From a virus: a DNA stretch of 31,094 nt. Position numbers and translations under genes: made by a program. The first letter of the stretch is position 1, and each line of letters begins with the position of its first letter. The stretch is from the IMG/VR virus record IMGVR_UViG_3300045135_000959, positions 1 to 31,094 of that record. The stretch is one strand, 5' to 3'. Below the pieces are notes generated by a model, which did not search any database, had not been told where the DNA came from, and saw nothing but the letters and a program-made list of their open reading frames with translations. Positions 1,223 through 25,956 of this stretch are shown here, piece after piece.

Positions 1223-4200
1223 TTATTTTTTGCCGTCGCCTTTAGGCCTTGATTCCGGGAATCGTTTGTACATATCCTCTAAAGCTTCCTTCTCTTTTTC
1301 AGCCTTTTTTCTAGCTCTAGTTTCAGCGGCTTTCTTTTTACCTTCTTCTTTACGTTGCTCTTTAGCATTCGTCTTGATCAGATCGTGCTCTTCGTTTGTA
1401 ACACCAACATCCCATGTTTTCCAGCCAAGTGCTAATGCTATACGCTGCCATGCTTCGTTTCTTGAATCTAATGCTTCAGAGTAAGAATTGATAATATCCA
1501 CCATTCTATCCATAGGAACGTTAGCCGCACCTGAAACCAATGAACCTATAATAGAATACGCAGGGCTTAAATTAATGCGCCCGTCTTTTGCAACATCAAA
1601 GCCGCGTGCTTTAAGAACATCTTCCTCAAATTTCTTGGTTTGAATTGCGGCATAGATTTTTCTATATTTAGAACCAATTGGTGGGGATAGGCTTAGCGCT
1701 GCTCCAAGTGTATAAGCATGATCGGCCATGAATCCTTTTTCCTCTTGCTTAAAGTATTCCGTAATAGTATTCTTTATAGTAGCAAGAACAGCGCCTTTAA
1801 CCCCACTACCCTTCAGAATAGAATCGGTCATGGAGTTTACAATTTTAAGAAGCCTAACGTTTTCTTTGTATTCCTTCTTTTCAAGCTCTTTAGCTGTCAT
1901 TCCACTTTCGTCCTCATCATCTTCAAAAGCAACTGCAAATAATGCGCTTTGTAATGCGGAGAATACAAAGTTTTGAACCGCGCCGTAATAGATAATTTTA
2001 GAAAGGTGGGTTTTAAAATCACCACGCCCATTTGCAATGTCCTGCATTGACTTTTTCATCAAGCGGGTATATTGCATAGGTGTGTTTTGGAACGCCAATA
2101 CTAAGCGACCTAGTGGGCTACGCTGCTCTTGGGATACTAAGTAAGGATCTGAAGATTGCTGAGCCTCATCAGCTGTTTTGCTAAAGTCTTCCCACGCCTT
2201 AGTTTCTGCCGCGCTTTGCTTCATACCTTGTTTCAGATATGTATTAACGCGGTTGCGGTAGAACGTTGATCCACCCATCGCAATAGCGAAACTATCCGCA
2301 ATCTGTGTTGGAGTAAAACCAATTTTCAATAAGTAAGCAATTACAGCAGATGCTTTGTTTTGAGCGCCATCGGCCATGTTCGCAATCTCTGCTTCGTTCA
2401 CATCAGTCTGTAGGCCAGAGCGGCGTTGCTTTAATTTATCAGAATTGAAAATGTAAGCAAAGTCTTTCCAGAATTGAGGCTGATTAGCAAATGCTGCAGC
2501 TGCTTTTATTGGGTTGTTGTCAGACCAGTTAATAAAGTTAGTTGCAGATAAGTTCTGCAATACAGCTGAACGTATGTTAAAGAACATGATTGCTCCAGTG
2601 GAGTTGTTCACCCAGTTCAACCATTGGTTCATTTGTCTGTTCATACCGGTAGGACGGTTACGCCCGTTGATCATGGAGTATAAAGAATCCTCCAATGCCT
2701 CTCTATGTCTAGTACCGTAAACCGCCTCAATTTTATTAAGGTTCTCAGGTGAGAATATCGCATCAGCATTTTCGATGAACTCTGCTAAATACTTTTTGCG
2801 GCCAACCTTTTCAGTCATGCTATTAAGATCCGAAACAATGGTATTTGACATCCAATGAGGCCCTGGTTCAACCCATGTGTCTTGGCGAGAAATAGCCTGC
2901 ATTGCATTACCTAACTCAATCAAACCTGGGAATTGATTGATTTCATTAATTAGGAATCTAACATCGTCTATGTCCATTCCCGGGATTTCAATGCCCTGCT
3001 GAGTCCACATGTATACACGCAACGCTTGGTCGTAAGTAAAATTAGTATTGCTAATTTTCTTTCCAAGCATTTTAAAGTATTTCTTATTTGCCTTTGCTAC
3101 AGCATGATATTCTCTGCGTATTTGTTGCTTAACAGCGTCAATTTGAGCAACGCCCCTGGTGTATGGGTCAATCAATTTTTCTTCAACCCATTTTTGATCA
3201 GCTTCGCCTTGTCTGCCTTTTCCGGCAAATGTATATGCTGTTAAGCCTCTAAAGTCTTCTGCGGATGCTGGAACAAACAATCTATATTTACCCTTTTTCT
3301 CACCCTGCATTTGAGCCTGCACTCTAGAATAAACCTTAGTAGCAGAAACACCTTTTGTGCGCTCAATCATTTCATTTAGTTCTTGACTGAGGCCTTTGCT
3401 AAATTTAATACTAGACTGTTCTAGACCGCTATTAACTTGATTAACAAAATCAGAAGGCAGCATTTCATCATACCCTAGATTGTCAGTGTTGATTTCGTAG
3501 AAGCGTCCTTTGTAGTCCTCGCGATATTTAGCGGCACTTTCCTGTACGCTATCCCATGTTTTAGTAACAATAAAATCAGCCAATGATCTTTCCGCTCTAG
3601 CGCGATTTCGTTTAACGGCGATATCCCGACTAGTGTTAACATGGATCATGTGAATTTCAAAACCCGCGTCCTCAAGAGCCTTCATCTTCTTGGTTGTAGC
3701 ATTATAAGAAGCGCCGGTTCCGTCAACGATCATACTTTCTTTAGCTGCAGTATTTCTAGCTAAATCTTCCTCGGCAGCCTTGCGGGCTTTCCATCCAAGC
3801 TTGGCGCGAAGGGATCGCTGTTCTTTATCGTATGTTTTTTCGTCTGTAGGTAAGCCCGCTTCTTCTATGTACTTTTCTAAGTACGGATCCTGATTAATCA
3901 AGCGGTATCCTTTTTCAATAAGCCCAAGCCCTTTTACAATACTTGACTTACCGGCGCCTGGTCCACCAACCATAAAGATTGCCCTTGGGTTGGTTGACGA
4001 AAACTTAATAGAAGGCTTAATAATGTTTTTTGCAGCGTGAGCTTTTGACCAGTTAATTCCTATTTTTTGAGTATAAGCTTCTACTTCGGCTTTTTTATTC
4101 AAATGCTCTTGCAATGTCTCTAGCGGTGCGGAGCCATTAACAAACTCCTCTATAGTTCTAGAGGCTATTGTCGTAGAATAAACTTTTGATTTTGTAGCAT

Positions 4201-7200
4201 CATCTAATAATTCAAATCGTAAAATACCTGATTTATTTTCTTTACGCTGAGTATCAAAAAATGCAGCCGACTTTGCATCTGTTGCTAATAGAGTGTTTTT
4301 TCTTAAGATTTTATCTAATGCTGCATTGGTGCCACCATCTAATCCGCCAAATTCATCTAGTGTAAAATTAGGATCTGCGGCTAGCGAAACTATATCCAGC
4401 ATTAGCGCAATATTAGGATACACATGCTCAATATAAGACGAGCCGGAAATGCCATTTGAAAAATAAGCTAATTGACCAGTCGCTCTAAACCCTTTATACA
4501 AATGCTTTTCATTCATTCTTTGGAGCAATCTGATAAGGTTTTTAGTGCTAAGCTCTCCTGATTTGACAGCTATAATAAGGTCTGTAGCTATAGATTTTGC
4601 TAAAGCTTTATTTGCTAAGTTAGCTTCTTGAATTTTACTGATTAACCCAGAATCAAGGGCTTTTTGTGCCGTACCGCTTCCCTGTTGTATTTCCTTTAAT
4701 ACACCAGCAAGCCCGCGCCCTTGGGAATAAAGATGTACTTCTTTTAATTGTTTTTCGGTTAATCTAGTCGCCCTGGTTTTGTCGCCAGTGCTCTCCGCTT
4801 GCATTGATATTTCAGCATCTCCAAAAACAGCGCCACCACCAAATGCTGCGATTTCAGCGGTATTTATATTTGCAGCAACACTTCCAACTTCGTTTTTATA
4901 ATTTTGAAGTTCGGCAATAGCGTCTTGATCACCGCTTTTAGCTAGTTTTTCTAATGTATTTAAACTAGTGTAGTCATTAGCAAAATCTTTGCCAAGACCG
5001 TCTATTTCAGATTTAGCTAAAAATGATTTAACAGTTAGTTGCTGCATGTAATCAAATAAGCCTCTATCGTACAGATATTTTATAGTGTTAAATATCTTGT
5101 CAAACATTGTTTTAGATAGTGGCATTTTTTCCCCGGAGGAAACGCTGTTAATTATTTCATCACGTTTTTGCATTGTTTCTTCAAAAGTTCTACCAAAATT
5201 TGAAGACTTTTTAAGGAAAACGTTTAAAACATTTTTAAATGTATCTCTAATAAACGGATCGCGTATTTCTGTGCGGCTTAGCCCTGGACTTTTTTTAGAC
5301 CATTTGATATTCCCACGTTCAAGATCAAGCGCTATAACAGCAACGGCGTTTTCAGCAATTTCTGCACCAACCCTTTCTTGGTTAGCCATCATTGCTCTGT
5401 AGATTTCGCTGTCAGGATCTTGAAGGCTTTCGTTTACTAATTCAATAGCCAATTCTTCTGCAATGGCTTTCGCCCAAGACTCTTTTTTACCACGTATTGG
5501 GTTACCTGATTCTTCAAGTATGTATGACAAGAATGTTTTGTCATCAATCTTAAGCGATGCTTGTGGCAATCGGCGGACCATTTCCGCTCCGGATGTACGA
5601 CCAGCCATATCAGTAGATGTGGTTTCGCGGTCAATCTTTTTGCCTTGCCAATCACTTGTCCACACGCCGTCAACTTTCTTTTGAACGGCAATAGGCATAG
5701 CCTGCATGAGATATGTGGTAGTCATATTCTCAAGTAGTGCTTTCTTATTCTTTGTTAGCCATTTGCGCAACTGGTGGTCTTTTTTACCACCCATTTCTTG
5801 CTTAAGGTCAATGTCAATCTGCTTGCCAAGTGCAAGTCTTAGCTCGTTTACGTATGGCTTAACCGTACGGTTTTTGGATACCGCCTCGTCAATACGGTTT
5901 TTAATCGTACCTACAATACGCGGTATCTTAGCCTTAATTGTTTCAAGCGTCTCAGGGCTAACAATTTTCTTTTCAAGCAATGTAGGATACTGAGGTTTCT
6001 CAGCTGTTGCTCTTTCTTGAATATCTTCAGAAGTTGTTGCTTCAGGTGCCGCCCCTTTATAGTCGTCAACATTAGAGCCGCCAAAATCTTCAGCAATGCT
6101 AACCTTACCAGCAGCAGCGTCTTTGAACATATCTCTAATGCGGAAATTGATGTAACTGTTTAGATACCCATATAAACTAGAGTTTTCGCCATGCTTGGCT
6201 ACATACTCTGGCGTATTAAATTTACCAATGACATTTCCCTCATATATACGAAGCACAACGTCGCTGATGGCTTCATCCATCTGGAAATTAGGGATCTTAG
6301 CAGCGTATTTTGCTAGCTGGGCTTTAATCATACCATTAAGCACACGGGCAATAATGGGCGAGTTAGGATCAAAGTAGCGCATGTCAGAGCTCATTTTTTC
6401 AAGCGTTTCTTTTGCTCTGCTTGCCTCATTAGACATGCTACCTTGGCTGAACTTAGGTGCTCTAAGTGCTGTTTTTGCAGCCGCAGCTCTAGCTTCTGGC
6501 GTATTAGCTGGTGCTGTAATTTTATTTGCAGCAGCGTCACTCATTTCTTGAAGAGTCAATTTACCGCTTGCTATTTTATTACCAAGACCAACAACAAAGT
6601 TTACTATGTCGTCTTCGCCCTTAAAGTCAAAGTCGTATTGGTCTTTTGCAACAAATTCAAGATTGGCCCCGAAGAATGCAGCAAGCCCACGCTTTTTAGT
6701 TTTATCCCTAAATCCAACCTTGTTGTCGGCAACAAGTTCAAGGAATCTTGATATAACCTCGTGCGCTTTGTAATTACCGTCTTTATCAACTTCGATAGTT
6801 TGAGCCCATGCTTTGTATTCCGCACGGGTCATTACTCGTTTTGCTTCTTTTAAAAGACTAGATGCGATTACACCAAACTGCTTTTCCTTGCCTTTAAATA
6901 TTTTATCAAATACATAGTGACCGACTTCGTGCGTGCCAATATGTTTTCTTTGATTAGCAACTTGGTTTTCTATTGAAATATAAACCTCGTCGCCCATATT
7001 GAACCCGTCAGATCCGTTTTTGATCTCTTCGATCACTTCTGCTACTAATGGATTTGGGACCATTGTTGTATTACCGTCGCCATCTACTGCTTGAATCTCT
7101 AATGGAATTATGACCCCTGCTTCTACAGCCCGAATCATTTCCTCTGTTGTGTCAAACTGTGTAACCTTAGCGCCTTGAACTTCTCCGGCTTGGTTGTTAT

Positions 7201-9847
7201 TCTTTACAAGTTCTTCGCGTAAGTAAATATCGTATGCAGCGGCTTCAATTTCCTTTTCTGTGGGGATATGATCGTCACCCTTTTGTGACAAAATGCTTTG
7301 TCTAGCAAGGTCAAGAAGATTTTTATATCTAGGGTTGTCGTTGACGGATAGCAAAGAAAATTCAGAGCGGAATTTCATAATGTTACCTTCGCTCAAGCTT
7401 TGTTCTTTCTTATATTGAAGGTCATTAAATTGTTCTCTAAGCTTTTGAATCTCCTCGGCTTTTTGCTTATTTGTTTTAGTGTCGTCTTTAGAAATCTCTA
7501 TAGCTTGCAATTGCAACTCTGTTTGCTTTTTAGTTGCCTCTTGCACCTCGGCAGCGTGGCGAGCTGTGAGATGTTTATTTATAAGATTTTCTACGCGCTC
7601 AACTTCAGCGTTAATTTCGTTATTTACTGTGTTTAGCTGCCCGCGGAGTGCCTCTATTTTCTCAGGATTAGATTCTTTTGCAATCTCAGCTTGAATACGT
7701 TTCGCTTCAGCCTGTTTCATGCGTAGATTTTCCTTTGCTTTGTAATCAGAGTGCCTAGATACGTATACACCGCGCATAAACGGCACGGCTTGCATAATTA
7801 GACCCATAGAATATCCAGAGAACCCAGAGTGATCCATGCCCTCTGTTATAGGTCTGCCATCTATTAGGTTTTGAGCTCCGGTAGTAAGTATTTCACCCCC
7901 CATTTCGGCAAATGGTTCCAAACCAAGCTCGTATAAGTTATCTTTAGCAAATGCGCGCATAGAGTTGTCTACTACGTCGGATTTGCCGGCTTGAACCCAC
8001 TTTGCTTTTGCGTTCTTTATTATACGTGTTGTAGTGATTTCGGAAAATACACCCTCAGCAAGACCATACCCGGTAGACTTCAGGGTCTTTTCTAGCATTG
8101 AGTATTCCGCTTCGCCGGCTAATTCCTCGCCGGTCATTTCACGGAATTTATTACCCATGCTTGTTGCCCCGGCTACCCAAGATGCACTGCCACCAGAAGC
8201 AATCATTGTTGTCATGATTGGAATCTGTGTCATGATCTCTTGCAGCATGAATTCGCCGAAGTTACCTGCATCATTGAAAGCGTCTTCAAAGCTTACGTCG
8301 CGCTGGTATCTTTCTTTCTCGTTATCCAAATAACGGCCAGCTTGATCAATGAGCACGCGGTTAATTTGTTTAACGGTGCCATTATTTGAGAATGTTCCAG
8401 CTTCATTTGCTAGTGTTGCAATGTCCAACCCAAGCCCCGCGAATCCGCCAACAACTGTGTTTGCTGATTTAGCCGCTAAACTATAGTCTCTTCGTGATGC
8501 ATCTAGTGCAATATCCGCGTCTTGTAATTCATTAGACGCGTTAAGCTTTTGTTCTTGCAACGAATTGTCGAGCAAGTTCAATACATTGTACATGTCAGAA
8601 ACCTCTGTTCCCGCATTATATAACGACTGTAGTATTTGTACACCATTAGATAATTGAACCATAGTTCTATCCGATGTATCAACAAATATACCTAGCTCGC
8701 TTAAGTCGCTTGTTAATTGTATTGCCTCTTCATCTGATAAGCTTTCGCCACTAAACATTCTACCCATGGCATCTGCTGCTGATAATGCAATACCACGCTC
8801 GTTCTCAATTACCATTGATTTTTCAACAGCGGAGTTATATGCAGCAGCTTTTTCATGCTGGATAAATGCATCGGCAATAAACTGATTCCCCTGCTGACTT
8901 TCGGTGCTACCGGGGAAATACATTGATCCAACGCCTGGTATAACCTTATACTCGCCATCAGCAACGCCGGCTTGCTTGCTTTTAGTGGCCTCTTTAGCTC
9001 TAGCTAATTTAAGATCTATAATATCGTTTTCAACAAATGTTTGGCGAACAATATTTTCAGCTTTGCTTTGCAGCTCTTCTGGCGAAATTGTTATATCATT
9101 TGCTTCGGCGTACTCAAGTAAGCCTTTCTTTGCGTTTTCAATTTCGTTTTTAAAAGGCTCAATAGTTACAACGCGAGATGTCGGCGTAACACCACTGTAA
9201 GCCATTCCGTCACTTGTTTTTACCTCAGTATACGGTGTAAACAAGTCTTCGCTTGAATACTTAGCGTTAATAGCCTCAACGTCTTCTGGTGTAACAAACT
9301 TAGACTTTTCTTCTTCTCTTGTGCCGGTTAAGGATGTTATGTTTTCACCCAACGCGGCCAATGACTCGCTAGAGACATTCCCTGTGATAAAAGCATTAAG
9401 CTCTTTAATATTTTCAGCAATAACAGCCTCATCCGTTTCGTCAAAAGACAAACGGTTTGATTGCTTCTTTTCTCCAGTTACAGGGTCTGTATATGTTGCA
9501 ATAAGGTAATCCGTGCCAAAGCCGGTTTCCTCGAAAGATACGCCTTCAATAGGCTTAAAATATGCCTCTAGATTTTCTCTACCCGGTGTCTCTGTTAATC
9601 CAAATATTCCCTGGCTGGCAAGCACATTTAAATCAGAACTTAGATCATACCCTTGTGACTCCAATGAAATATCGCCCGAACTGGAATCCCCAGCGGGCGT
9701 TTGATTTGAGCTCACCGGCGGAGTCGTTTCCGCTGAGCCGTTTTGCTTTCCCGCACCGCCATTGTTTGCCAATAGCTCTTCGACTGTAACGCCGTTAAGT
9801 GCTGCAATTTCCTGTAATTTTTCAGGGGTGAATTTGCTTAGATCCAT
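1223..9847 (-). CDS. Giant 2874-aa multidomain virion (ejected, polyvalent) protein
   Basis: The largest gene here, presumably packaged and injected into the host. In order: a short helical N terminus and a Ser/Thr/Gly-rich linker (about 30-65); a long helical region with hydrophobic stretches near 536-565 and 680-695; a coiled coil near 700-820; a zincin site HEVGH at 973-977 with Glu1030 or Glu1037 downstream; a sigma-70-region-2-like stretch near 1187-1243; a helical region; a zeta-toxin/polynucleotide-kinase-like P-loop domain with GGPGAGKS at 1961-1968 and DGTG at 2042-2045; a further domain from about 2150; and a C-terminal part with hydrophobic segments near 2415-2435 and 2618-2641 and a very basic tail. 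KFS or KWS motifs fall at boundaries. It follows two smaller Ala/Gln-rich proteins, as T7 gp14-gp15-gp16 are grouped. It has no DxDGD RNA-polymerase motif, unlike the giant protein of crAss-like phages. Individual activities are predicted only. Confidence 0.85.
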   Translation of the reverse strand: MDLSKFTPEKLQEIAALNGVTVEELLANNGGAGKQNGSAETTPPVSSNQTPAGDSSSGDISLESQGYDLSSDLNVLASQGIFGLTETPGRENLEAYFKPIEGVSFEETGFGTDYLIATYTDPVTGEKKQSNRLSFDETDEAVIAENIKELNAFITGNVSSESLAALGENITSLTGTREEEKSKFVTPEDVEAINAKYSSEDLFTPYTEVKTSDGMAYSGVTPTSRVVTIEPFKNEIENAKKGLLEYAEANDITISPEELQSKAENIVRQTFVENDIIDLKLARAKEATKSKQAGVADGEYKVIPGVGSMYFPGSTESQQGNQFIADAFIQHEKAAAYNSAVEKSMVIENERGIALSAADAMGRMFSGESLSDEEAIQLTSDLSELGIFVDTSDRTMVQLSNGVQILQSLYNAGTEVSDMYNVLNLLDNSLQEQKLNASNELQDADIALDASRRDYSLAAKSANTVVGGFAGLGLDIATLANEAGTFSNNGTVKQINRVLIDQAGRYLDNEKERYQRDVSFEDAFNDAGNFGEFMLQEIMTQIPIMTTMIASGGSASWVAGATSMGNKFREMTGEELAGEAEYSMLEKTLKSTGYGLAEGVFSEITTTRIIKNAKAKWVQAGKSDVVDNSMRAFAKDNLYELGLEPFAEMGGEILTTGAQNLIDGRPITEGMDHSGFSGYSMGLIMQAVPFMRGVYVSRHSDYKAKENLRMKQAEAKRIQAEIAKESNPEKIEALRGQLNTVNNEINAEVERVENLINKHLTARHAAEVQEATKKQTELQLQAIEISKDDTKTNKQKAEEIQKLREQFNDLQYKKEQSLSEGNIMKFRSEFSLLSVNDNPRYKNLLDLARQSILSQKGDDHIPTEKEIEAAAYDIYLREELVKNNNQAGEVQGAKVTQFDTTEEMIRAVEAGVIIPLEIQAVDGDGNTTMVPNPLVAEVIEEIKNGSDGFNMGDEVYISIENQVANQRKHIGTHEVGHYVFDKIFKGKEKQFGVIASSLLKEAKRVMTRAEYKAWAQTIEVDKDGNYKAHEVISRFLELVADNKVGFRDKTKKRGLAAFFGANLEFVAKDQYDFDFKGEDDIVNFVVGLGNKIASGKLTLQEMSDAAANKITAPANTPEARAAAAKTALRAPKFSQGSMSNEASRAKETLEKMSSDMRYFDPNSPIIARVLNGMIKAQLAKYAAKIPNFQMDEAISDVVLRIYEGNVIGKFNTPEYVAKHGENSSLYGYLNSYINFRIRDMFKDAAAGKVSIAEDFGGSNVDDYKGAAPEATTSEDIQERATAEKPQYPTLLEKKIVSPETLETIKAKIPRIVGTIKNRIDEAVSKNRTVKPYVNELRLALGKQIDIDLKQEMGGKKDHQLRKWLTKNKKALLENMTTTYLMQAMPIAVQKKVDGVWTSDWQGKKIDRETTSTDMAGRTSGAEMVRRLPQASLKIDDKTFLSYILEESGNPIRGKKESWAKAIAEELAIELVNESLQDPDSEIYRAMMANQERVGAEIAENAVAVIALDLERGNIKWSKKSPGLSRTEIRDPFIRDTFKNVLNVFLKKSSNFGRTFEETMQKRDEIINSVSSGEKMPLSKTMFDKIFNTIKYLYDRGLFDYMQQLTVKSFLAKSEIDGLGKDFANDYTSLNTLEKLAKSGDQDAIAELQNYKNEVGSVAANINTAEIAAFGGGAVFGDAEISMQAESTGDKTRATRLTEKQLKEVHLYSQGRGLAGVLKEIQQGSGTAQKALDSGLISKIQEANLANKALAKSIATDLIIAVKSGELSTKNLIRLLQRMNEKHLYKGFRATGQLAYFSNGISGSSYIEHVYPNIALMLDIVSLAADPNFTLDEFGGLDGGTNAALDKILRKNTLLATDAKSAAFFDTQRKENKSGILRFELLDDATKSKVYSTTIASRTIEEFVNGSAPLETLQEHLNKKAEVEAYTQKIGINWSKAHAAKNIIKPSIKFSSTNPRAIFMVGGPGAGKSSIVKGLGLIEKGYRLINQDPYLEKYIEEAGLPTDEKTYDKEQRSLRAKLGWKARKAAEEDLARNTAAKESMIVDGTGASYNATTKKMKALEDAGFEIHMIHVNTSRDIAVKRNRARAERSLADFIVTKTWDSVQESAAKYREDYKGRFYEINTDNLGYDEMLPSDFVNQVNSGLEQSSIKFSKGLSQELNEMIERTKGVSATKVYSRVQAQMQGEKKGKYRLFVPASAEDFRGLTAYTFAGKGRQGEADQKWVEEKLIDPYTRGVAQIDAVKQQIRREYHAVAKANKKYFKMLGKKISNTNFTYDQALRVYMWTQQGIEIPGMDIDDVRFLINEINQFPGLIELGNAMQAISRQDTWVEPGPHWMSNTIVSDLNSMTEKVGRKKYLAEFIENADAIFSPENLNKIEAVYGTRHREALEDSLYSMINGRNRPTGMNRQMNQWLNWVNNSTGAIMFFNIRSAVLQNLSATNFINWSDNNPIKAAAAFANQPQFWKDFAYIFNSDKLKQRRSGLQTDVNEAEIANMADGAQNKASAVIAYLLKIGFTPTQIADSFAIAMGGSTFYRNRVNTYLKQGMKQSAAETKAWEDFSKTADEAQQSSDPYLVSQEQRSPLGRLVLAFQNTPMQYTRLMKKSMQDIANGRGDFKTHLSKIIYYGAVQNFVFSALQSALFAVAFEDDEDESGMTAKELEKKEYKENVRLLKIVNSMTDSILKGSGVKGAVLATIKNTITEYFKQEEKGFMADHAYTLGAALSLSPPIGSKYRKIYAAIQTKKFEEDVLKARGFDVAKDGRINLSPAYSIIGSLVSGAANVPMDRMVDIINSYSEALDSRNEAWQRIALALGWKTWDVGVTNEEHDLIKTNAKEQRKEEGKKKAAETRARKKAEKEKEALEDMYKRFPESRPKGDGKK
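3398..6454 (-). repeat. Recurring (I)KFS / KWS boundary motifs in the giant protein
   Basis: Short motifs recur inside the protein: PKFSQG at 1131-1136 (codons near 6441-6457), IKWSKK at 1514-1519, INWSK at 1931-1935, IKFSS at 1947-1951 and IKFSKG at 2147-2152. They sit where one recognisable domain ends and the next begins, and two IKFS copies are exactly 200 residues apart, bracketing the kinase domain. They may be linkers or protease sites. Confidence 0.55.
3443..4000 (-). other. P-loop kinase domain (zeta-toxin / polynucleotide-kinase-like) in the giant protein
   Basis: Residues about 1950-2135 carry a Walker A motif GGPGAGKS (codons 3944-3967) after a hydrophobic strand AIFMV, then NQDP, a predicted strand with VDGTG, a second strand with IHMIHV, and an Arg-rich RNRARAERS helix suited to a phosphate-clamping lid. 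This layout matches zeta-toxin and T4 Pnkp-type kinases. The substrate (nucleotide, RNA end or UDP-sugar) cannot be told. The domain is flanked by IKFS at both ends (1947-1950 and 2147-2150). Confidence 0.75.
6917..6931 (-). other. Zincin active-site motif HEVGH in the giant protein
   Basis: These codons read H-E-V-G-H (residues 973-977). The first and last His would bind zinc and the Glu would activate water. A third ligand is likely Glu1030 or Glu1037 in the helix HEVISRFLE. Metallopeptidase domains inside large phage polyvalent proteins are proposed to process the polyprotein itself or host proteins after injection. Confidence 0.75.
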
Positions 9848-9870: not shown

Positions 9871-10980
9871 TTATATAGCGTCGTAAGCGTCTTGTCTAGA
9901 TGGGAATGCTACACCATCAACGAAATAAACATCTGGATTGTCTTTGCTTCTGTAAACGGTGTGCCCGCTGATTTGATATTTAACGCCAACTGTCTTATCG
10001 TCATCAACCTTCGCCCAATCAGGGTCATCTTGTTTTTCAGTAGGTGTAGTTGTTCCAACGCCGCCCGTAGGTTTTTTCTGCGAATCTTTATATGCTTTAC
10101 CTTCCGCTGCCGCAGCATCTACACCACTTAATACGCGGTCTTTTACTTGCTGACGTACTGCATCAATGTTGTTTGGATCCCATTCGATATCCCCGAATGA
10201 CAAGCCATCGCTATCAAAGTCACCAGATACCAATGATTTAAGTTGATCAGGCGATTTAAGGAAACCATCAATTTTAGAAGATACGACGCTACGCGCGTAC
10301 TCGTTCATTGGCACACCCTTATTATAATAGTCATTGGCTAGGCTCATAATAGAGTTAGCTGTATCGTAAGCACGCATTGTAGGCATTTGGAAATCGTCAA
10401 ACGACTGAATATTGCCGTCACCCAAGTCATATCCTAGTTTACCACCCGGAAGCACGGAAATCTTCGCTTTGTTTTCGCTAAGACCAAATACGGAATTAGC
10501 CGCTTCAATTTCAGAACCAGCACCCAATGACCATTGACCAGACTTTGTGAGCTCGCCATACTGCACTTTATTATCTTTGTATGCCTTTACCTGATTAGAT
10601 AAGTTTAAGAATCCCTGTTGTACAGAATTCATTTCGTCAATGTAATACTGATACTCAGGCGAAGTGTGATCTTCTATTTTAGCTATCTGAGACGCCGCGT
10701 ATGCGTACTTGCTGCGTTCGGTAACCAAATAGTCGCGCATTGCTTTTTGGGTGTCCTCATCAAGCCCTGTGAAGTCAAAATCTGACTTCATTTTGTCCAT
10801 GTATTTATTAGCGGTATTTGTGGCGTTTAACGCTTTCTGTTTTTCTTCCGCTTTAGCTTGAATAATGGCAGAACGATCCGTAGTAACGGCTTTCATGCCG
10901 GCAGCGTAGTTTACAAAACCACTGCCGCTGCCACCACCGCGCATCGTTTTTTCTCCTTGTATTAAATCTGAATTTGCCAT
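9871..10980 (-). CDS. Internal virion / ejection-type protein
   Basis: A 369-aa mostly helical, polar protein between the 215-aa protein and the 2874-aa giant. It begins with a Gly/Ser-rich patch (MRGGGSGSG at 13-21), continues with Lys/Gln/Ala-rich helices to about 135, has a mixed middle, a disordered Lys/Thr/Gly/Pro stretch near 296-325, and a compact C-terminal piece with repeated aromatic residues (HTVYRS, VYFVDG). It has no signal peptide or clear TM segment. By position and composition it resembles the middle member of an ejection-protein trio such as T7 gp15, but I recognise no domain. It starts 1 nt after the preceding stop. The Met at 13 is an alternative start; the first ATG is kept because it abuts the upstream gene. 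Confidence 0.7.
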   Translation of the reverse strand: MANSDLIQGEKTMRGGGSGSGFVNYAAGMKAVTTDRSAIIQAKAEEKQKALNATNTANKYMDKMKSDFDFTGLDEDTQKAMRDYLVTERSKYAYAASQIAKIEDHTSPEYQYYIDEMNSVQQGFLNLSNQVKAYKDNKVQYGELTKSGQWSLGAGSEIEAANSVFGLSENKAKISVLPGGKLGYDLGDGNIQSFDDFQMPTMRAYDTANSIMSLANDYYNKGVPMNEYARSVVSSKIDGFLKSPDQLKSLVSGDFDSDGLSFGDIEWDPNNIDAVRQQVKDRVLSGVDAAAAEGKAYKDSQKKPTGGVGTTTPTEKQDDPDWAKVDDDKTVGVKYQISGHTVYRSKDNPDVYFVDGVAFPSRQDAYDAI

Positions 10981-10981
10981 A

Positions 10982-11629
10982 TTACCTCACTGATTGCCCT
11001 AGGAAGTTGGTCACACCGTCAACAGCAGCCATGCCTTGTACAGGTGCCATTGCCTGGATTGATGCTGACGCTACTTGCCCAACGCCACCAATTAACGCTT
11101 GTGTAGCTTCTTGACGCGCTAGGTTCGCGGCGCCTAAACGAGCTTGCGACATCCCCAGTTCTGTTTCTGTTTGATTGCGTTCCATATTACGAGACAACAC
11201 CTCTCCCTCACGGAATTGGCTTTGAAGACTTGCTGCCATTTGGCGCTCTGCTGACTGATTACTAGCCTCTTGCTGCGCAATAGATGCAGATGCTGATTGA
11301 GCATTCTGTGACTGAGCGTTAGCCAACGATTGTGCCAACGCGGCAATACCAGAACCGCCAGCGGCACCCTTCATAGCATCCATTGTTTGTGCCATTCCTT
11401 GCGCTTGCTGCTGAGCCCTGAAATCTGCTGCTTGAGTATTAACTGTCAAATCTTCGTATGCATTTTGCATATTTGCATACGGGTTGGACGTATCAAGATC
11501 TTGAAATCTAGCTAGGTTAGTGTCATATAGTGCCTGAGCATCTTTTTGCTCTTGTACACGTTTCTTGTGACCAATAATACCGGTCGCAATACCAACACCA
11601 CCCTGGATTAAGCTGTCTACTAGTGGCAT
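10982..11629 (-). CDS. Ala/Gln-rich internal virion / ejection-type protein
   Basis: A 215-aa protein with a short hydrophobic Gly-rich N terminus (IQGGVGIATGIIG at 8-20), a NPYAN motif near 50, and a long Ala/Gln/Ser-rich helical body (QQQAQGMAQ, QSASASIAQQEASNQ), ending in another Gly/Ala-rich hydrophobic part near 175-205. The N-terminal hydrophobic segment plus long polar helices is like T7 gp14-type ejection proteins, which enter the host envelope first. It follows the muzzle gene after 31 nt and precedes the other two presumed cargo genes. Similar proteins occur in marine podoviruses, a recollection I cannot check here. The direct sequence evidence is composition and position. Confidence 0.7.
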   Translation of the reverse strand: MPLVDSLIQGGVGIATGIIGHKKRVQEQKDAQALYDTNLARFQDLDTSNPYANMQNAYEDLTVNTQAADFRAQQQAQGMAQTMDAMKGAAGGSGIAALAQSLANAQSQNAQSASASIAQQEASNQSAERQMAASLQSQFREGEVLSRNMERNQTETELGMSQARLGAANLARQEATQALIGGVGQVASASIQAMAPVQGMAAVDGVTNFLGQSVR

Positions 11630-11660: not shown

Positions 11661-14600
11661 TTATTCGCTGCTTATAAACACTTCGGAGTTGACCGCAAAC
11701 AGTTCTTTTGGGTCTGATCCTGACAATGTCATAAGCACTTCGGCGTAGTATCCGACGATACCCGATGTATTCTTAACGCTGTCTTTAGCAAAGAAAACAA
11801 AATCTCCAGCTTGTGGTGGCGCTACGCCATAAGAATTTTGAACAACAAGAAGATTTCCATTGTTTATAGCGAACAGTTTACCTATAATATATACCAGCCC
11901 GTTGCCTGCGCTTTTGTAGTATATAGGATCATTGGCTTGCAGTGAAACATTTGCTTTACCAGGTAGGACTATTTCAAATATACCTGGCGTTGGATCATCA
12001 GCGTCTTCAGTTAACACCCCGAGCCCTTGTACAGAAAACTCTGATGTGTCAAGTGCGCCTGACTGTGTAGTGTTATCCCAAGTTGTAGCTAAACCATTAA
12101 TGTAGTTGAAGAAGATACCTTCTTTCTTTTTCCACGTTTTAACCTCGCCGTCTTGCTGGTCAGTAATAACATCCGCTACCCAACCTTCGCTTCCTTCGTA
12201 TGACAAAGTCTTGAAGTTTTTGATACTTGTTGGGGCATCGTTAATGATAGGCGTAATTGTAGCATCATACTGAGAGCCATAGAAGTTTGCGCGCAATGGA
12301 TTAGTATGAATCCAAAGCTCACCTCCCTGGAACGTGTAGTAAGAGTTATTCATTGAAACACCAAACTCAGGTTGGTAGGACAAGCGAGTTGGCCAGCCGT
12401 CAATTCTTTCTTTAAACGATACAGAATCATCGCCAACCGCGACATTATAAGAAGATACATCTTCATCATATGCTCCAATGATTGGCCCTGTATGTGCTTT
12501 CAACTTTTCTTGGAAGTATCTTGACATGCCTTTCTCATTCAGCTCTGTCAAACCGTCCATTGATAGCCTTAATACGGAACCGCGCGCTTTATCGGTAAAG
12601 TAAGAACGGAAGCCAAACGAGGCAAACGATTCAGGGTTTTTAGATATACCAAAGTCCCCAGCAAATGGAATTGCTTGGCCTAATACTCTATTTGTTGACG
12701 TGAGATTTGTATTGCCGTCAGCATTGTACAATGCATCTTTATCGGCGAGTACTTTAAAACACTTGTCCTCACAAAGCACCAATAGATCCCCTGTTGCGCC
12801 GCCACCTCTAGATGACAGCTTTTGAATAGTGCCATATATAGGATTAAGATCTTTGCTGATTTTAAGACCTTGTATAAACTGATTTAGTTCGTTAACTCCG
12901 CTGGTGCTATTATACAAGCCGCTCCAGATTAGGCCGCTACCTCGATGTTCCTCGGCATACGGCTCATCAAGCACCGTAGACACTTTAACACCTTTGGTGA
13001 TTGTTTTAGCATTAAAGTCATCGCGAATACGATCAGACTCTACACCATTTCCAAAGCTATAACAGTTAAACCAATCAAGCTCTATAGAAGTGTTGAGCAA
13101 ACCAATTGGCAATGCGTTTGTTGCCTCGTAATAAAGATCAATATCCGCTATTTCAGTTGGTTCTGTTTCAAATACAGCTGGGTTAGGTGTTGAAAGAATA
13201 ACCGAGTCAGTGTCAAATATAGTTGGCTTCAAGCGGCGTTTGCGCATGAAATGAACCTCTTCTATGTCGTTTGCCCATGTAAACGTTGACGGAAGCGGAT
13301 CAACTAATGTTATTTTTAAAACATAAAAATATTGAGAGCCGTTGACAACGGAATCAGGTGTTATACCAACCCTTGCGTTTGTTGCTCTAAAAACACTAAG
13401 TATTTCCTTTGGCTCTGTTAACTGCCCCGTGATAGGGTTTCTGAATCTAACGTAATGCCCCGCGGCTAAGTTTGCATGTACCCATTCATACGGGGTATTT
13501 GGCGTGCCGGAAGCTTCTGTTGTATTTCGTATCCACCCCAAGCTAAAAACAGCGTTGTTTGCATTTGGGGGGAACGGTCCATTTGGACCGGTGGCAAATG
13601 AACGTACTGGTGGGCCAGCGTCATAAAACTCACCCCACGCCCATCTGTTTTGATAAGCGATGTTAGATGTTCCGTTTGCTGGGTCATCTAACGCGTTTAG
13701 CTGAATATTCGACATTTGTTGCATAATGTCATATGTATATTCAGTGCCTTCAGACCCGTAAATTACATTATTATCTAGTGGCGTATCTCGATTAATCTTA
13801 ACAAAAAACTTCCCAAGATATTCAGGCTTAGAAACATATTCTTCTTGATAAACCTGTATTTCTACAGCCTCTACAGAGTTATAGATTATGTTAACGGTAT
13901 CTGTGTCCAATACTTCTTCAAGTTTGACGCGGTATGTTGTTGGGTCACTGCCTTTTAAACCGCCGTCTTCCACTTTGTAGAAACCGCTGGTTACTTGGTT
14001 AGATCCCCAATTTAATCTGCCTCTAAACTTAATATAAACAGTGCCCTGCCAAGCCCTGATAAATTCGCCGTTAGTTACATCACTAGGCCCGCTAAACGTG
14101 AACTCATTATCGCCAGCAGAAACATTAGCAGGGGTTGAGTCTGTATTTTTAACATTTGTTACCGCGGCATATGCTACCTGAGTCTTTTCGTTAGCGATGC
14201 TTTCAGGCGCTTCACTTTTAATATCTAAAACACGATATCTAGCAGAGCTTATTACAGCATCGTCAGACTTATGTGCTTTCTTTAATTCTATAAATTTATC
14301 CTCTGAAAGTTTGTTTCTTTCGGCTGATGGAATGGCTAACCAAACATTGCCGTCACCAGAGTCATACACCCTATCAATAATTACATTGTAATACTCATTA
14401 GAAGGGTCTTTAACGTAGTATTTAAAATGCGTTGCCCAAGACGGCGCGGTATGGCTTGAAAGTACCTCTATTTTATTTGATCTACGAGCAAGTGATTTTG
14501 GCACACGAACCGCACTGTTTTCACTCGTAAATACAGGTGTTTCGCGGCCGTATTTGTCCATATATACAATACCCACATTATAGTCGCGCATTGACTTTAC

Positions 14601-16037
14601 AGATGGTTCCGGATACTTGACATTGTTTATATTCGAAGAAACAATACTTGCACTGATATCTGTTAGTGTATTATCAACGTCATAGTTTTGAACGTAGTTC
14701 CCGTATACAATTCTATTGCCAATAAGTTCTTGCGCTTTAGCTTTGCGTGGAACATTATCATATGGGCGGATTAATTGATCAGGATTTACAACACTATATA
14801 TTAGTTCGGAATCAATAGAATATAGGGTTGTTGTAGGCGGCACGGCGTCGACTTTATATACCGATGTTTCATTCGAATCTTTATATAAAATTTCAAGCTC
14901 ATCAACATCGTCTGGCACATTTGAAAATCCACTAAGCTCAATTTTACGTATATTATTTGTCATACCCTCGTTAAACGCTTCGTCCGGAGTGTATGAAAAG
15001 TAATTTGGCTCGAAAGCCACGTTTGAAAATGGAGAATATGCTGAGTATGTATTGTTTGCAAACTTCCATCGGTAAGCAAAGCGAGGGAAGCTCAATTCAA
15101 ACATTGGCTCGTCCTCTTCTAATAAACAAGACCACTCTAGGGTTTGATTAGGCAAATCGTAAGGTATAGACTCTACCTCTGCTGTAATAGATGTGCCAGA
15201 AACCACAGTGACGGTTGCTCTGATTTGCCATTCGTCTTCGTAATCATTGTCATTAGTTGACGATGCGTCCATTATGATAATATCTCCAACTATCCAGTTT
15301 GGGGTGGCGCTTACGGTAAATGTAATTAAAGAACCAACTTCAACCGGCACCCATTCCGTAATAATATTTTCGGTGAACTTAGCGTTTGTTGTAACAGGAT
15401 CAATACCTGTACCATTTCCTCCGCGAAGTGATGCAAATGTGTTTACGGTCGGTGCTGCAAGCGGCTTTGGTTTAATAACGGTAACGTCGCTTTCTTCAAA
15501 ATCTCTACCGTACACCTGTGTGTCTGTAGTGAAGTCCGTAGAGCCAGCTTTAAACAGTTCTATATCGATGATCTTTGGTTCATTTAAACCGTCAGTCCAC
15601 ATCAACATGCCATCAAGCACATTCACCCCTGTGATTAGATAATCATAGCTAAAGTTTAGGTAGCCCTGTGTATCAACAAGAATTGGCGCAACAATATCTG
15701 TAGTCTCGTCGTATTCTACAATAGCACTCACCGTGCCCACTTGCGTATCCTCTCCTATTATAAACCAATAAATCTTTTCGTTTTGCGTATCGCGTACAAC
15801 ACCAATACATACAGTATTAGTAAGGCCAAACCCATCTGCCCAGTAAACATCGGGGTTGGTTGACCTTAAATTCTTCTTAGTATTACCTAGAATGTTTTCT
15901 ACCGCACCAACATCAGATCCTTCAGACGTGCTGATTTGGATATTTTGGGCGTCTCTGTATTGTCCGTTGGGCACAAGTCTCTCGTCAAGATCCTTGTTCA
16001 TTTTGCCCTGCACGAACGTGTGCTGTAACTTAGGCAT
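11661..16037 (-). CDS. Tail muzzle / stabilization protein
   Basis: A 1458-aa, beta-rich, acidic protein with few long helices. Its first 51 residues match what I recall as the opening of crAss-like stabilization (tail muzzle) proteins: QHTFVQGKMNKDLDERL at 5-21, YRDAQNIQ at 27-34, and SEGSDVGAVENI at 38-49. In those phages the protein forms the distal end of the short tail, closing the channel until DNA release. Length fits that family. Ig-like and beta-propeller-like stretches are plausible but not provable by eye. It lies 3 nt after a ring protein gene and before the cargo genes, the usual order. A receptor-binding contribution is possible. Confidence 0.8.
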   Translation of the reverse strand: MPKLQHTFVQGKMNKDLDERLVPNGQYRDAQNIQISTSEGSDVGAVENILGNTKKNLRSTNPDVYWADGFGLTNTVCIGVVRDTQNEKIYWFIIGEDTQVGTVSAIVEYDETTDIVAPILVDTQGYLNFSYDYLITGVNVLDGMLMWTDGLNEPKIIDIELFKAGSTDFTTDTQVYGRDFEESDVTVIKPKPLAAPTVNTFASLRGGNGTGIDPVTTNAKFTENIITEWVPVEVGSLITFTVSATPNWIVGDIIIMDASSTNDNDYEDEWQIRATVTVVSGTSITAEVESIPYDLPNQTLEWSCLLEEDEPMFELSFPRFAYRWKFANNTYSAYSPFSNVAFEPNYFSYTPDEAFNEGMTNNIRKIELSGFSNVPDDVDELEILYKDSNETSVYKVDAVPPTTTLYSIDSELIYSVVNPDQLIRPYDNVPRKAKAQELIGNRIVYGNYVQNYDVDNTLTDISASIVSSNINNVKYPEPSVKSMRDYNVGIVYMDKYGRETPVFTSENSAVRVPKSLARRSNKIEVLSSHTAPSWATHFKYYVKDPSNEYYNVIIDRVYDSGDGNVWLAIPSAERNKLSEDKFIELKKAHKSDDAVISSARYRVLDIKSEAPESIANEKTQVAYAAVTNVKNTDSTPANVSAGDNEFTFSGPSDVTNGEFIRAWQGTVYIKFRGRLNWGSNQVTSGFYKVEDGGLKGSDPTTYRVKLEEVLDTDTVNIIYNSVEAVEIQVYQEEYVSKPEYLGKFFVKINRDTPLDNNVIYGSEGTEYTYDIMQQMSNIQLNALDDPANGTSNIAYQNRWAWGEFYDAGPPVRSFATGPNGPFPPNANNAVFSLGWIRNTTEASGTPNTPYEWVHANLAAGHYVRFRNPITGQLTEPKEILSVFRATNARVGITPDSVVNGSQYFYVLKITLVDPLPSTFTWANDIEEVHFMRKRRLKPTIFDTDSVILSTPNPAVFETEPTEIADIDLYYEATNALPIGLLNTSIELDWFNCYSFGNGVESDRIRDDFNAKTITKGVKVSTVLDEPYAEEHRGSGLIWSGLYNSTSGVNELNQFIQGLKISKDLNPIYGTIQKLSSRGGGATGDLLVLCEDKCFKVLADKDALYNADGNTNLTSTNRVLGQAIPFAGDFGISKNPESFASFGFRSYFTDKARGSVLRLSMDGLTELNEKGMSRYFQEKLKAHTGPIIGAYDEDVSSYNVAVGDDSVSFKERIDGWPTRLSYQPEFGVSMNNSYYTFQGGELWIHTNPLRANFYGSQYDATITPIINDAPTSIKNFKTLSYEGSEGWVADVITDQQDGEVKTWKKKEGIFFNYINGLATTWDNTTQSGALDTSEFSVQGLGVLTEDADDPTPGIFEIVLPGKANVSLQANDPIYYKSAGNGLVYIIGKLFAINNGNLLVVQNSYGVAPPQAGDFVFFAKDSVKNTSGIVGYYAEVLMTLSGSDPKELFAVNSEVFISSE

Positions 16038-18666: not shown

Positions 18667-20100
18667 TTATAGGCTAGTTGATTTCAACAACACGAAGTTG
18701 TTTGCACCTTGAACACAGATAGTACGCTCAGACAACATGTGAACGTTCATTTCATCAGCGTCGCTAGTGTAGTTTCCACCAACAGATCCAGTAACCCAAG
18801 ACTTCAAGCGACGATCGTCAGCTTCAGAAGCACGGTAACGGATGTGAAGGAATGGACGAGAGATGTTCTTACCAAGCATCTGATCGTAAACTGTAGAAGT
18901 ACCTGCAGGAACGATTACACCGTCGATATCATCGATACCGCCACGAGTAACTGAGTCGTTCAAGTATTTCCAGTCAGTTTTGTAGAAGTCGTAAGAACCA
19001 CGACGGAAACCAGAGAATCCTAGGTTCAATGCCATATCTTCAGAGTTGTTGAAAACACCGTAAGAAGTACCACCAGCACCGTAAGAGTTCTGAGCAGCCA
19101 ACATGTTGTCAATTTCCAAAGAAGTTGCACGATCCAAGAACATCATGTTCTCTTCGATAGCTCCTTGCTTGTCAAGTTCAGCCAAGATAGTGTCGAACTC
19201 AGCCAAACCAGCACCAGCAGCGGCACCGAAGTCAGCGTCGTTGTAAACCAATCCGCGCTCTTCCAAAGCAGAGAACAAACCTTGAGTACCTTCCAAAGTA
19301 GCACCAGAAGCGTCAGTGAAGCTAGACTTAGCTTTTTCTGCTTCAACCATGCTCATTTCCAAGTAGTCTTCGAAACGTAGACGTGCTTCGTGCTCAGACT
19401 TCAAGTACCACAAGTAACCGCCAGTACCAGCTTCAGTAGTAACTTCTACCCAACCGATCTGAGCAACGTCAGAACCGTTTACGTGGTATTTGTCACGAAG
19501 GATGATTGGCTTGTTGCTGAAAGTATCGAAAGAAGCATCGATAGAGTTTCCAGCGTTGCTAGATCCTTTACCGTACTCAGAACCGAATACAAACAATTTC
19601 AAAGCCGCAGCACCTTGAAGGTCGCTAGGGAAGTTACCGTCAGTAGTGTTGTAACACTCAACAGTTACAGTTTGACCAGCTACAGACTTAACGAAAGCCT
19701 TAACAGTGTCAATACCCAAAGTAGCATCGCTTTGAGAAACAACGATAGTCATACCAGCACCCAACAAGTTAGTAGCACCAGGGATAGTGATAGTCTGTCC
19801 GTGTGCACCAGCAGGAGTGTTAGAAGCTACGTCGTCGTAAGCGATGTGTAGACGGCCTTGTTCAGACCATACTACTTGGTCAGAAGCCATTGGCATTTCA
19901 GCGCCAACCATGCGCAAGAAACCACCGATTGTGCGGTTACCGTAGCGCTCTACTTCTTTTTCGTATACTTCAGGCAAGAATTGTTGCGTGAAGTCCATAT
20001 CAGCGACACTCAAGTAGTTGTCACCGAAAAGTCCTTTAACAGGACGTGGCGTCAAGTGCGCCAAGTTTGCCAATGAGGCAGGTGATGTTGCAAAAGCCAT
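18667..20100 (-). CDS. Major capsid protein (HK97-fold expected)
   Basis: A 477-aa protein at the expected place after portal and scaffold. The N-terminal part (TPRPVKGLFGDNYLSV near 17-32, TQQFLPEVYEKEVERYGNRTIG near 38-59), the long alpha/beta body and size near 480-500 fit crAss-like capsid proteins. Codon use is strongly skewed, with Asn mostly AAC, Phe TTC and Tyr TAC, unlike the mixed use of the giant protein, consistent with very high expression. A/T-rich leader with no Shine-Dalgarno motif precedes the ATG, and a strong stem-loop follows the stop. No N-terminal delta domain or protease site is evident. The fold is inferred from family, not visible directly. Confidence 0.85.
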   Translation of the reverse strand: MAFATSPASLANLAHLTPRPVKGLFGDNYLSVADMDFTQQFLPEVYEKEVERYGNRTIGGFLRMVGAEMPMASDQVVWSEQGRLHIAYDDVASNTPAGAHGQTITIPGATNLLGAGMTIVVSQSDATLGIDTVKAFVKSVAGQTVTVECYNTTDGNFPSDLQGAAALKLFVFGSEYGKGSSNAGNSIDASFDTFSNKPIILRDKYHVNGSDVAQIGWVEVTTEAGTGGYLWYLKSEHEARLRFEDYLEMSMVEAEKAKSSFTDASGATLEGTQGLFSALEERGLVYNDADFGAAAGAGLAEFDTILAELDKQGAIEENMMFLDRATSLEIDNMLAAQNSYGAGGTSYGVFNNSEDMALNLGFSGFRRGSYDFYKTDWKYLNDSVTRGGIDDIDGVIVPAGTSTVYDQMLGKNISRPFLHIRYRASEADDRRLKSWVTGSVGGNYTSDADEMNVHMLSERTICVQGANNFVLLKSTSL

Positions 20101-23745: not shown

Positions 23746-25956
23746 TTATCGTATTATTTTCGACATACTCCCGTCCTGCGCATATCTCGCAATAGAGAGA
23801 TTTAATTTTTGTTTTTGAATTTGTGCTACCGGTCTATACAAATCTTTATTGCAAGCCATAATCGCTAAGCCGGAAGAAATAGCAGCATCGTATTTCGTAC
23901 GATTATTGATATCAAATCTAGCCCAGTCATTTAGTGTTCGATCAAAATACATTGATCCGTAACTACCATCTTCTTGTAAGCCGACGTACTTATCTATGTA
24001 CATCTCAATGGCAGCCGCGTGTGCTTGTTTCACGTCCTCGCTCGAGTTCGGTATTCCGCCTATTTCCTTTTCAGTTACGGAAAGCTTATTCCATAATCTG
24101 TCAGGTCTATTCATTGAAAAACCCCGATAACCACGTCTCTTAAAATAATAAAGTAGTCTCGGTTTGTTATTCTCAGCAAGAATTGGCATCCCGTAAAAGA
24201 CGCAAGCCATAAGTACGTCTTCGAAGAATATCTCAGCTGTCTGAGGCCTAGCAACATATTCTAAAAAGAATGTACTAGGTGGCGCATCTTCCATGCTGAA
24301 CTTTGTTAGCCCATGCAATGCACCTTTAGAGCCCTTGCCGTCGGTAGTCCCTGAAATATCGTAACTATCACAGCCAAATGCACCGATGTGCTCATTGCCT
24401 GGATATTTAATACCATTTTTCACAATTACGCGATTCTGTAGATTTGCGGAAGGAATCCACGATATCTTAAATCGCCCTTGAGGACCGGGTATAAACTCTA
24501 CTCTTGAGTCTTTTATACCGTTAGCCCACTGAAAATTACCAGTGGTTATAACACTAGTATTACGCAGATCTTGATTATAATCAACTTGTTCATAGATTTT
24601 TGCTAAGTTAAACAAGCTATTTTTTGTTTCATCGCGAAATGCGTGTTCTTCGGTACGTGGAAACTGTCTGTAATATTCATTTAAGGCGTCCTGGTCTTGT
24701 TTAAGGCCTTCAACCTCATTCTCCCAGTAATCTATAACCCCAACTTCAATCGGATCGCCATATGGGTCTAAAACTTCTTCTTCAGGTGTTTCAAATACGG
24801 GCTGCCCATACTCGTCAATAAACCCTTCGTAGTTCCATTCCATTGGGATAAACAAACTGTATAAGCCAGACTTCGTTTGTCCGTTGGCGTTTCGCTTGGT
24901 AACATCCGAGTCATAGTACAGTTTTTTGAAGTTGTCGCCACCTTTATCCAAAGCGTTCGATGTTGATCCCATCATACACTTACCAATAATACGCGAACCC
25001 AAACGCAAACACGTTTTAGTTACACGCCAGTTATTGAGGATATTATCAGGTTTTTCCCACTTACCACTCTCATCATGAACGAGTAATCGTAATTTCTCAC
25101 CATCATAAGAGTTATCACCAGTGTTTTTCCAGTCAATTGTAGTGTCAAGACCCTCCATCTCCGTACGTTTTTCCTTTGACGTCATTGACTTTCTTGTCAA
25201 TTTCGATGCAGGAACGCGATACGCTAATTCTGTTTTAGGTCTATCCATACCATCTTGGATAGGCTTGAAGAAAAAAGGATAGTTTACAGAAATAGGTACA
25301 ACCTTATCGGTAAACATCTTTTTAGCATCGGCACCCGTTTTAGATAATATACCAAAACGAGCATCACTGGTGTTGGTTGCTTGGTTTACGGTTTCAGCGG
25401 AAGACATAAATGAAAATCCACTCCGTCGGTTTTTAAGATAGCACATTCCGTAAGCTCTTGAATCTGCTTTAACGGCTTCCCAGAAAATGAAGAACAATCT
25501 GTTTGCTTCACGAAAATCTGGAAATCCGACGTCAATCTTTGACCATTGTAGGTACATATAATGAGTACCGGTAATATACGTAGGTACATCGTTATTGTAG
25601 AACCAATGCCCTTCTTCTCGTCTTCGGAACTCTTCATCTATATATCCGCCCCATTTTGCTTGGAATTCCTCAGGATAGCTAGCCCAATCAAATATTGTCT
25701 TAATATTCTTAAGCTCTTTTGGGTATTCTTCAACTTGCCACTTATTTGCGCCCTTCTTCAAGTTCTTTGGTGCAGGTGGCAATGCAATAGCAAGGTTCTG
25801 TATTTCAATGATCTCGCCAATCTCCCCGGTTTGACTAAGAACAACAATATCGTGTTCTTTGTTATAGCCATACTTCCATTTCTTCGCTTTATTGTAACGA
25901 TGTAATGTAGAAAGCTTAACGGGCTCAACCGTTTTAACTAATGTTTGCTCGTACAT
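23746..25956 (-). CDS. terL: Terminase large subunit (TerL)
   Basis: A 736-aa two-part packaging motor: N-terminal ATPase and C-terminal RNase H-like nuclease. The Walker A region is unusual, KNRRSGFS at 175-182, with no GK[ST]. Walker B is LLVHDE at 291-296, with Asp295 and Glu296. A coupling motif GSTSN lies at 330-334. In the nuclease, candidate metal ligands are Asp530 or Asp533 (GCDSYD), Glu595 (LAENN) and Asp690 (KYDAA). The N-terminal region NKWQVEEYP and GTHYMYLQWSKID fit crAss-like TerL proteins. Its ATG shares an A with the stop of the preceding small gene (TAATG). A separate nuclease or ATPase partner is not seen nearby. Confidence 0.92.
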   Translation of the reverse strand: MYEQTLVKTVEPVKLSTLHRYNKAKKWKYGYNKEHDIVVLSQTGEIGEIIEIQNLAIALPPAPKNLKKGANKWQVEEYPKELKNIKTIFDWASYPEEFQAKWGGYIDEEFRRREEGHWFYNNDVPTYITGTHYMYLQWSKIDVGFPDFREANRLFFIFWEAVKADSRAYGMCYLKNRRSGFSFMSSAETVNQATNTSDARFGILSKTGADAKKMFTDKVVPISVNYPFFFKPIQDGMDRPKTELAYRVPASKLTRKSMTSKEKRTEMEGLDTTIDWKNTGDNSYDGEKLRLLVHDESGKWEKPDNILNNWRVTKTCLRLGSRIIGKCMMGSTSNALDKGGDNFKKLYYDSDVTKRNANGQTKSGLYSLFIPMEWNYEGFIDEYGQPVFETPEEEVLDPYGDPIEVGVIDYWENEVEGLKQDQDALNEYYRQFPRTEEHAFRDETKNSLFNLAKIYEQVDYNQDLRNTSVITTGNFQWANGIKDSRVEFIPGPQGRFKISWIPSANLQNRVIVKNGIKYPGNEHIGAFGCDSYDISGTTDGKGSKGALHGLTKFSMEDAPPSTFFLEYVARPQTAEIFFEDVLMACVFYGMPILAENNKPRLLYYFKRRGYRGFSMNRPDRLWNKLSVTEKEIGGIPNSSEDVKQAHAAAIEMYIDKYVGLQEDGSYGSMYFDRTLNDWARFDINNRTKYDAAISSGLAIMACNKDLYRPVAQIQKQKLNLSIARYAQDGSMSKIIR

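Follow-up and report, generated by a model that had tools for sequence, protein, structure and literature searches.

The IMG/VR virus record IMGVR_UViG_3300045135_000959 is 31,094 bases long, and our reading of this virus's own genome is confined to that stretch, which we refer to as the window. On its minus strand, at 1223..9847, lies the gene for a giant polyvalent protein of 2874 amino acids (aa), a frame that is complete from ATG through stop with aa 1 at 9847, as a preliminary description made from the sequence had read it. The description had taken the product for a polyvalent virion protein joining a zincin, a sigma-like stretch and a zeta-toxin-like kinase, and this domain architecture is backed by profile matches, by conservation and by structure modeling. 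Iterative profiles split the protein into an N-terminal core B (aa 445-699), the zincin (882-1097), the sigma-like stretch (1123-1272), domain E (1296-1519), region F (1560-1945), the kinase (1940-2140) and a C-terminal core H (2144-2834). A zincin, a sigma2-like domain and a P-loop kinase, effectors unrelated to one another, thus share one polypeptide, as is typical of polyvalent proteins.

Searching the full-length giant protein directly against viral contigs gave zero matches, and a PDB sequence search with the whole protein gave no match. The route that succeeded was through the neighboring muzzle protein, whose alignment matched viral contigs at 80 loci, from which 30 giant frames or fragments were retrieved. 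A later scan with core H reached at least 542 viral contigs and brought in a further 80 loci. The 64 further non-redundant giants were picked by core H, so that their count for this core (64/64) is by selection; the other modules are present in 42 (B), 56 (zincin), 17 (sigma-like), 49 (E), 20 (F), 4 (kinase) and 47 (a HAD-like domain) of them. The three-domain combination singled out by the preliminary description is present in the window giant but is not unique to it, as kinase, zincin and sigma-like stretch also occur together at loci L109, L123 and L124.

The zincin (gluzincin-type metallopeptidase) domain, aa 882-1097 (6557..7204, minus strand), was recovered in 31 sequences by a hidden Markov model (HMM). 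Its active-site motif HEVGH lies at aa 973-977 (6917..6931, minus strand), the position given by the description, and an AlphaFold2 model from 29 sequences places it on an ordered helix (model residues 101-115). The candidate third zinc ligand is Glu1030 (6758..6760, minus strand; model residue 161), on a later helix (159-171). Across the 29 aligned zincin domains, which are 11-34% identical to that of the window, the only invariant positions are H973, E974, H977 and Glu1030. An HExxH motif arises in 1.65% of composition shuffles of the giant protein, so the motif alone is weak; a single HExxH is nevertheless found in 28 of the 29 non-fragment giants from the same slot and in 61 of the 64 further giants, the three without it being 1365 aa or shorter. 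Within model residues 20-175 the predicted local distance difference test score mostly lies at about 85-95. Structure comparison with VIA-align over model residues 1-243 gave Z 5.9 for Certhrax, across 164 residues, and Z 5.0-5.3 for anthrax lethal factor. Pfam Peptidase_M78 was matched by 4 of the 29 members (best 7.6e-5) and a Foldseek search of the zincin/sigma model against the PDB returned nothing at E < 1. The Z values are moderate, and the conservation of the ligands is therefore the stronger evidence. The Certhrax/lethal-factor type is the superfamily named for polyvalent zincins (Iyer 2017, PMC5512222), and the HExxH followed by a Glu on the following helix, by which such zincins are recognized, is found here. 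Alignment and model together show a predicted zincin fold with a complete ligand set. HExxH motifs are also seen in other cargo or virion proteins, namely crAss001 gp47 (aa 2157) and phi14:2 gp65 (aa 245) and gp70 (aa 234 and 461), and among nine sequences phi14:2 gp65 gave a weak match to the zincin profile (7e-4). A 114-aa frame at 29844-30188 of the window (minus strand), with HEKVH in the context EAVAHEKVHLEQM, would be a second, small zincin-like protein.

A sigma-70 region-2-like domain was located at about aa 1148-1255 (6083..6406, minus strand) by profile, Pfam and structure. The best PDB matches of a 12-member profile were sigma-K (0.0032) and SigE (0.0096), and those of a 26-member profile included the SigE N-domain (E=0.0012); Pfam Sigma70_r2 was matched by 2 of the 12 members, at best with 7e-4. 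When the zincin/sigma model was compared using VIA-align, sigma factors or sigma-containing complexes, aligned at aa 1148-1255, made up 9 of the 12 best matches, ranks 1-4 included, with Z 5.5-6.7. Profiles of other giant segments (A3, A6, A8 and A9) matched no sigma factor. Region 4, the -35/beta-flap helix-turn-helix, was found neither by a profile search with domain E nor by whole-protein Pfam, and we therefore do not class the protein as a complete sigma factor. Profile and model comparisons support homology of the stretch with sigma region 2. A precedent for a factor built on such a domain is T4 gp55, of the sigmaR2 type, which binds a -10-like element as well as the clamp helices (PMC7892883); in both proteins region 2 is the only part of a sigma factor that is recognized, and in gp55 it suffices for these contacts. 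The difference is that gp55 is a small separate late-gene protein, whereas the module in the window is fused within a predicted virion protein.

The third effector is a zeta-toxin/polynucleotide-kinase-type P-loop kinase at aa 1950-2140 (3428..4000, minus strand). Its Pfam matches, AAA_33 (5.3e-13) and Zeta_toxin (1.5e-9), both exceed the gathering thresholds (38 bits vs 22.3 for Zeta_toxin), and its PHROG matches are to ATPase and polynucleotide kinase. The Walker A motif GGPGAGKS stands where the description had put it, at aa 1961-1968 (3944..3967, minus strand), and the DGTG and the Arg-rich stretch that it had also noted lie at aa 2042-2045 and R2080-R2087. A Walker A pattern occurs by chance in 13.5% of composition shuffles of the giant protein and is weak on its own; the P-loop, a QD/SD pair, DGTG and an Arg-rich lid ending in ERSL are conserved in six giants. 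As to substrate class, AAA_33 outscores Zeta_toxin, and weak PDB matches of the P-loop region include polynucleotide kinases. The substrate may be UDP-N-acetylglucosamine (UDP-GlcNAc), as for zeta toxins, or polynucleotide-kinase-like. In BFVD the model of kinase plus C-terminal core has 37% identity over 959 columns to A0A218MLT5 of an uncultured virus, named "UDP-N-acetylglucosamine kinase", a comparison made over these two parts alone and a name that is a database label only.

Four further parts of the giant were delimited. Core B (7751..8515, minus strand; iterative HMM, alignment A9) is matched in phi38:1 gp101 (7e-68) and phi13:2 gp127 (9e-67), and also in the same-slot giants elemoF gp18 and that of Panino. 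Domain E (5291..5962, minus strand), with function unassigned, is common to 22 sequences in addition to the 49 counted above, and PDB profile searches with B and E gave no convincing relatives. Of region F (4013..5170, minus strand), about aa 1685-1885 are common to 11 giants. Core H (1346..3418, minus strand) is all-helical and has no PDB sequence match, nor does any Pfam or PHROG family recur across its members. Its BFVD matches are close uncultured-virus proteins followed by LPD, ART-PolyVal and MuF-type proteins (E 5e-11 to 1e-3), the resemblance being to the C-termini of LPD/polyvalent proteins. The membrane-type segments that had been noted in the protein did not hold up, the best 19-residue hydropathy mean being 1.49 (aa 2623-2641), below the 1.6 usual for a transmembrane helix.

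The family is mosaic. Compared with the giant of L123, that of the window is 82% identical in the kinase and 80% in the C-terminal core, and 26% in the zincin and 22% in the N-terminal core. By this comparison the N-terminal half is exchanged or fast-diverging while the zinc ligands persist. The HAD-like domain (DFDDTLA ... LTAR ... YFxDDA), whose Pfam matches are sub-threshold, stands directly before the C-terminal core, for example in L088, L090 and L094 (L094:6669-7178), a place that the kinase occupies in the window giant. Effectors also sit within the HAD domain, where they separate motif I from the cap: a kinase in L109 (aa 2361-2780) and L129 (aa 1990-2213), and an ART-PolyVal-like domain (E 0.007) in L098 (aa 1612-1900). 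The HAD cap seems to be a hot spot for insertions. The window giant has four [KR][FW]S motifs, every one of them at a module border (aa 1132 PKFSQ, 1515 IKWSK, 1948 IKFSS and 2148 IKFSK), and family-wide 20 of 54 such motifs lie near domain edges against 6.6 expected, with homologous positions counted repeatedly. They are possible linkers or cleavage signals, a lead only; as universal cleavage sites they were rejected, some giants having none.

Upstream of the giant gene lie a 369-aa protein in the C2-cargo position (9871..10980, minus strand; synteny with crAss001 gp46), a 215-aa protein in the C1-cargo position (10982..11629, minus strand), kin of the virion structural protein phi38:1 gp99 (phmmer 1.2e-5 in a 16-sequence set), and the muzzle protein (11661..16037, minus strand), matched above cutoff by Pfam crAss_MUZ (1.8e-10) and crAss_MUZ_C (5.9e-10). 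The order muzzle, small, small, giant corresponds to muzzle gp44, C1 gp45, C2 gp46 and gp47 in crAss001, of which gp45, gp46 and gp47, together with gp49 and gp50, were detected in virions by mass spectrometry (PMC10172136). The matching gene order makes the window giant the positional counterpart of crAss001 gp47 and phi14:2 gp67, and this synteny supports its placement in the crAss cargo position. Relatives that share the order muzzle, small genes, giant are MW202828 (3859 aa), elemoF (3694 aa), phi38:1 gp101, phi13:2 gp127 and Panino (1829 aa), and the giant is annotated as structural in elemoF, phi38:1 and phi13:2. A 140-aa module with 80.7% identity is shared by phi14:2 gp67 (L122) and phi13:2 gp127 (L005), which ties the two cargo slots together. 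Both are phages of Cellulophaga baltica, phi14:2 a true crAss phage and phi13:2 one of the Pachyviridae, and the shared module represents a recent exchange.

The preliminary description had set the giant in the slot of the crAss RNA polymerase. This is correct for the position of the large polymerase-associated cargo (gp47/gp67), but not for that of the catalytic genes, which are gp50 in crAss001 and gp66 in phi14:2. In the comparison with crAss-like polymerases that the description had proposed, the motif [SGT]DFDxDK was present in the controls gp50 and gp66 and was not found in the complete MW202828 and phi38:1, the window, the giants or the other relatives checked. The giant itself was ruled out as an RNA polymerase, lacking the DFDxD motif and any BLAST match to gp50 or gp66. 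Crassvirales phages crAss001 and phi14:2 resemble the window in where the large cargo is encoded, following the muzzle and the smaller cargo genes, and in the HExxH of gp47 and gp65. They differ in that gp47, gp67 and gp65 have no detectable full-length homology with the window giant, and in that no catalytic polymerase gene was found in the two complete relatives checked.

Elsewhere in the window, all on the minus strand, are the protein in the major capsid position (18667..20100; phrog_13704, virion structural, 7.5e-97; 52% to its MW202828 counterpart) and the terminase large subunit (23746..25956), with 64.5% identity to terL of Podoviridae sp. ctfjg026, MW202828. Frames judged by eye as a GroES-like co-chaperonin (30756-31013) and an M15-type, endolysin-like peptidase (42-566) also occur in annotated relatives. 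With a muzzle protein of the crAss type, as in Crassvirales-like podoviruses, the virus is a crAss-related marine podovirus, and its host is probably one of the Bacteroidota.

We put at about 55% the probability that the giant is an ejected polyvalent cargo protein, processed by its zincin, which delivers a sigma2-type module and a kinase. Delivery into the host with the DNA would fit the synteny and the virion annotation of relatives. The conserved N-terminal and helical C-terminal cores would hold the protein in the virion and deliver it, with exchangeable modules between them. The packaged protein would thread the tail partly unfolded alongside the DNA and refold inside the cell, where the zincin, which probably self-processes the giant, would cut the polypeptide at points between its modules. 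Once released, the sigma2 module may bind the clamp helices of the host RNA polymerase, like T4 gp55, and favor phage promoters, and the kinase may phosphorylate a host or defense-related small molecule, or an RNA end. The sigma2 module could matter because the clade seems to be without a virion RNA polymerase. Low dN and saturated dS in kinase and C-terminal core count in favor of this reading. A broader proposal, that a branch of crAss-related marine phages gave up the virion RNA polymerase and that some members eject a sigma2-only factor within a self-cleaving polyvalent protein to take over the host enzyme early, is speculative and in our view rather improbable.

Several points weigh against the ejected-cargo reading. 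That the protein is packaged, ejected and cleaved, and that it binds RNA polymerase, is inferred, and the kinase part of the structure model is poor. The giants of phi38:1 and phi13:2, annotated as structural, share only the N-terminal core and have no HExxH, and the N4 virion polymerase, which also has a zincin, is packaged without being processed (Iyer 2017, PMC5512222). The sigma2 matches are each marginal (E ~1e-3, and Z < 8 can occur by chance in helical models), and the searches named above gave no region 4. The domain is present in only 17 of the 64 family members, so it is not a general substitute for a virion polymerase, whose absence from the clade rests on one motif and BLAST.

The giant could instead be mainly a structural protein of the ejectosome or internal core, like T7 gp16 or N4-type injection proteins, with its enzyme-like modules aiding entry: the zincin would open the cell envelope, and the kinase would phosphorylate UDP-GlcNAc as zeta toxins do, weakening cell wall synthesis. 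The C-terminal core, the most conserved part, is all-helical, weak structural matches were obtained to the phiM1 ejectosome (Z 3.7) and a T7 core protein (Z 3.5), and such a role has been proposed for polyvalent zeta-type kinases (Iyer 2017, PMC5512222). However, helical models give Z values of 3.5-3.7 as noise, it is not obvious what a sigma2-like module would do in entry, and the ART-like insertion that L098 has in this region suggests intracellular effectors. We regard this explanation as doubtful.

It also seems rather unlikely to us that the zincin is an effector that cuts host proteins, although its fold resembles lethal-factor-type zincins, effector action is listed as an alternative role (Iyer 2017, PMC5512222), and there is no universal conserved cleavage site, the KFS linkers missing in several giants. 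The near-universal single copy of the zincin, set against the varying kinase, sigma2 and HAD modules, fits housekeeping processing better. That the sigma-like stretch is a helical bundle merely resembling region 2, with no binding to RNA polymerase, would accord with sequence support of only about E=1e-3 and with Z values in the range of common helical arrangements. We consider this quite unlikely, since sigma factors top the rankings of two independent methods, and do so over the same stretch of residues, while segments A3, A6, A8 and A9 match none.

For polyvalent proteins, processing by a zincin and kinases of the zeta type have already been described, and examples with a zincin and such a kinase are known (Iyer 2017, PMC5512222). 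The window giant resembles these giant multidomain phage proteins in its zincin, the domain that most often serves as their hub and that has HExxH plus a second-helix Glu, in the zeta-type kinase and ART modules of its family, and in its likeness to LPD-bearing proteins in BFVD. It differs in its C-terminal core, which has no Pfam match, and in occupying the cargo slot of crAss phages; that study uses neither the word "sigma" nor the word "crAss". N4-like virion RNA polymerases are also giant ejected virion proteins, and their zincin lies apart from the catalytic domain (Iyer 2017, PMC5512222), whereas no T7-like polymerase domain was matched in the window giant. Within the papers searchable, we found neither the sigma2 module nor this crAss-related giant family described, and no paper joining crAss-like phages, zincin and RNA polymerase; subscription papers were outside this scope, and priority is not certain.

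The giants make up a large family of cargo proteins among crAss-related marine phages, and we found no existing name for this family. The zincin is its near-universal enzyme, and the other modules are swapped. Cultured relatives exist in Flavobacterium phage elemo and the Cellulophaga phages, and the sigma2 module offers a testable answer to how phages seemingly without a virion RNA polymerase might start transcription.
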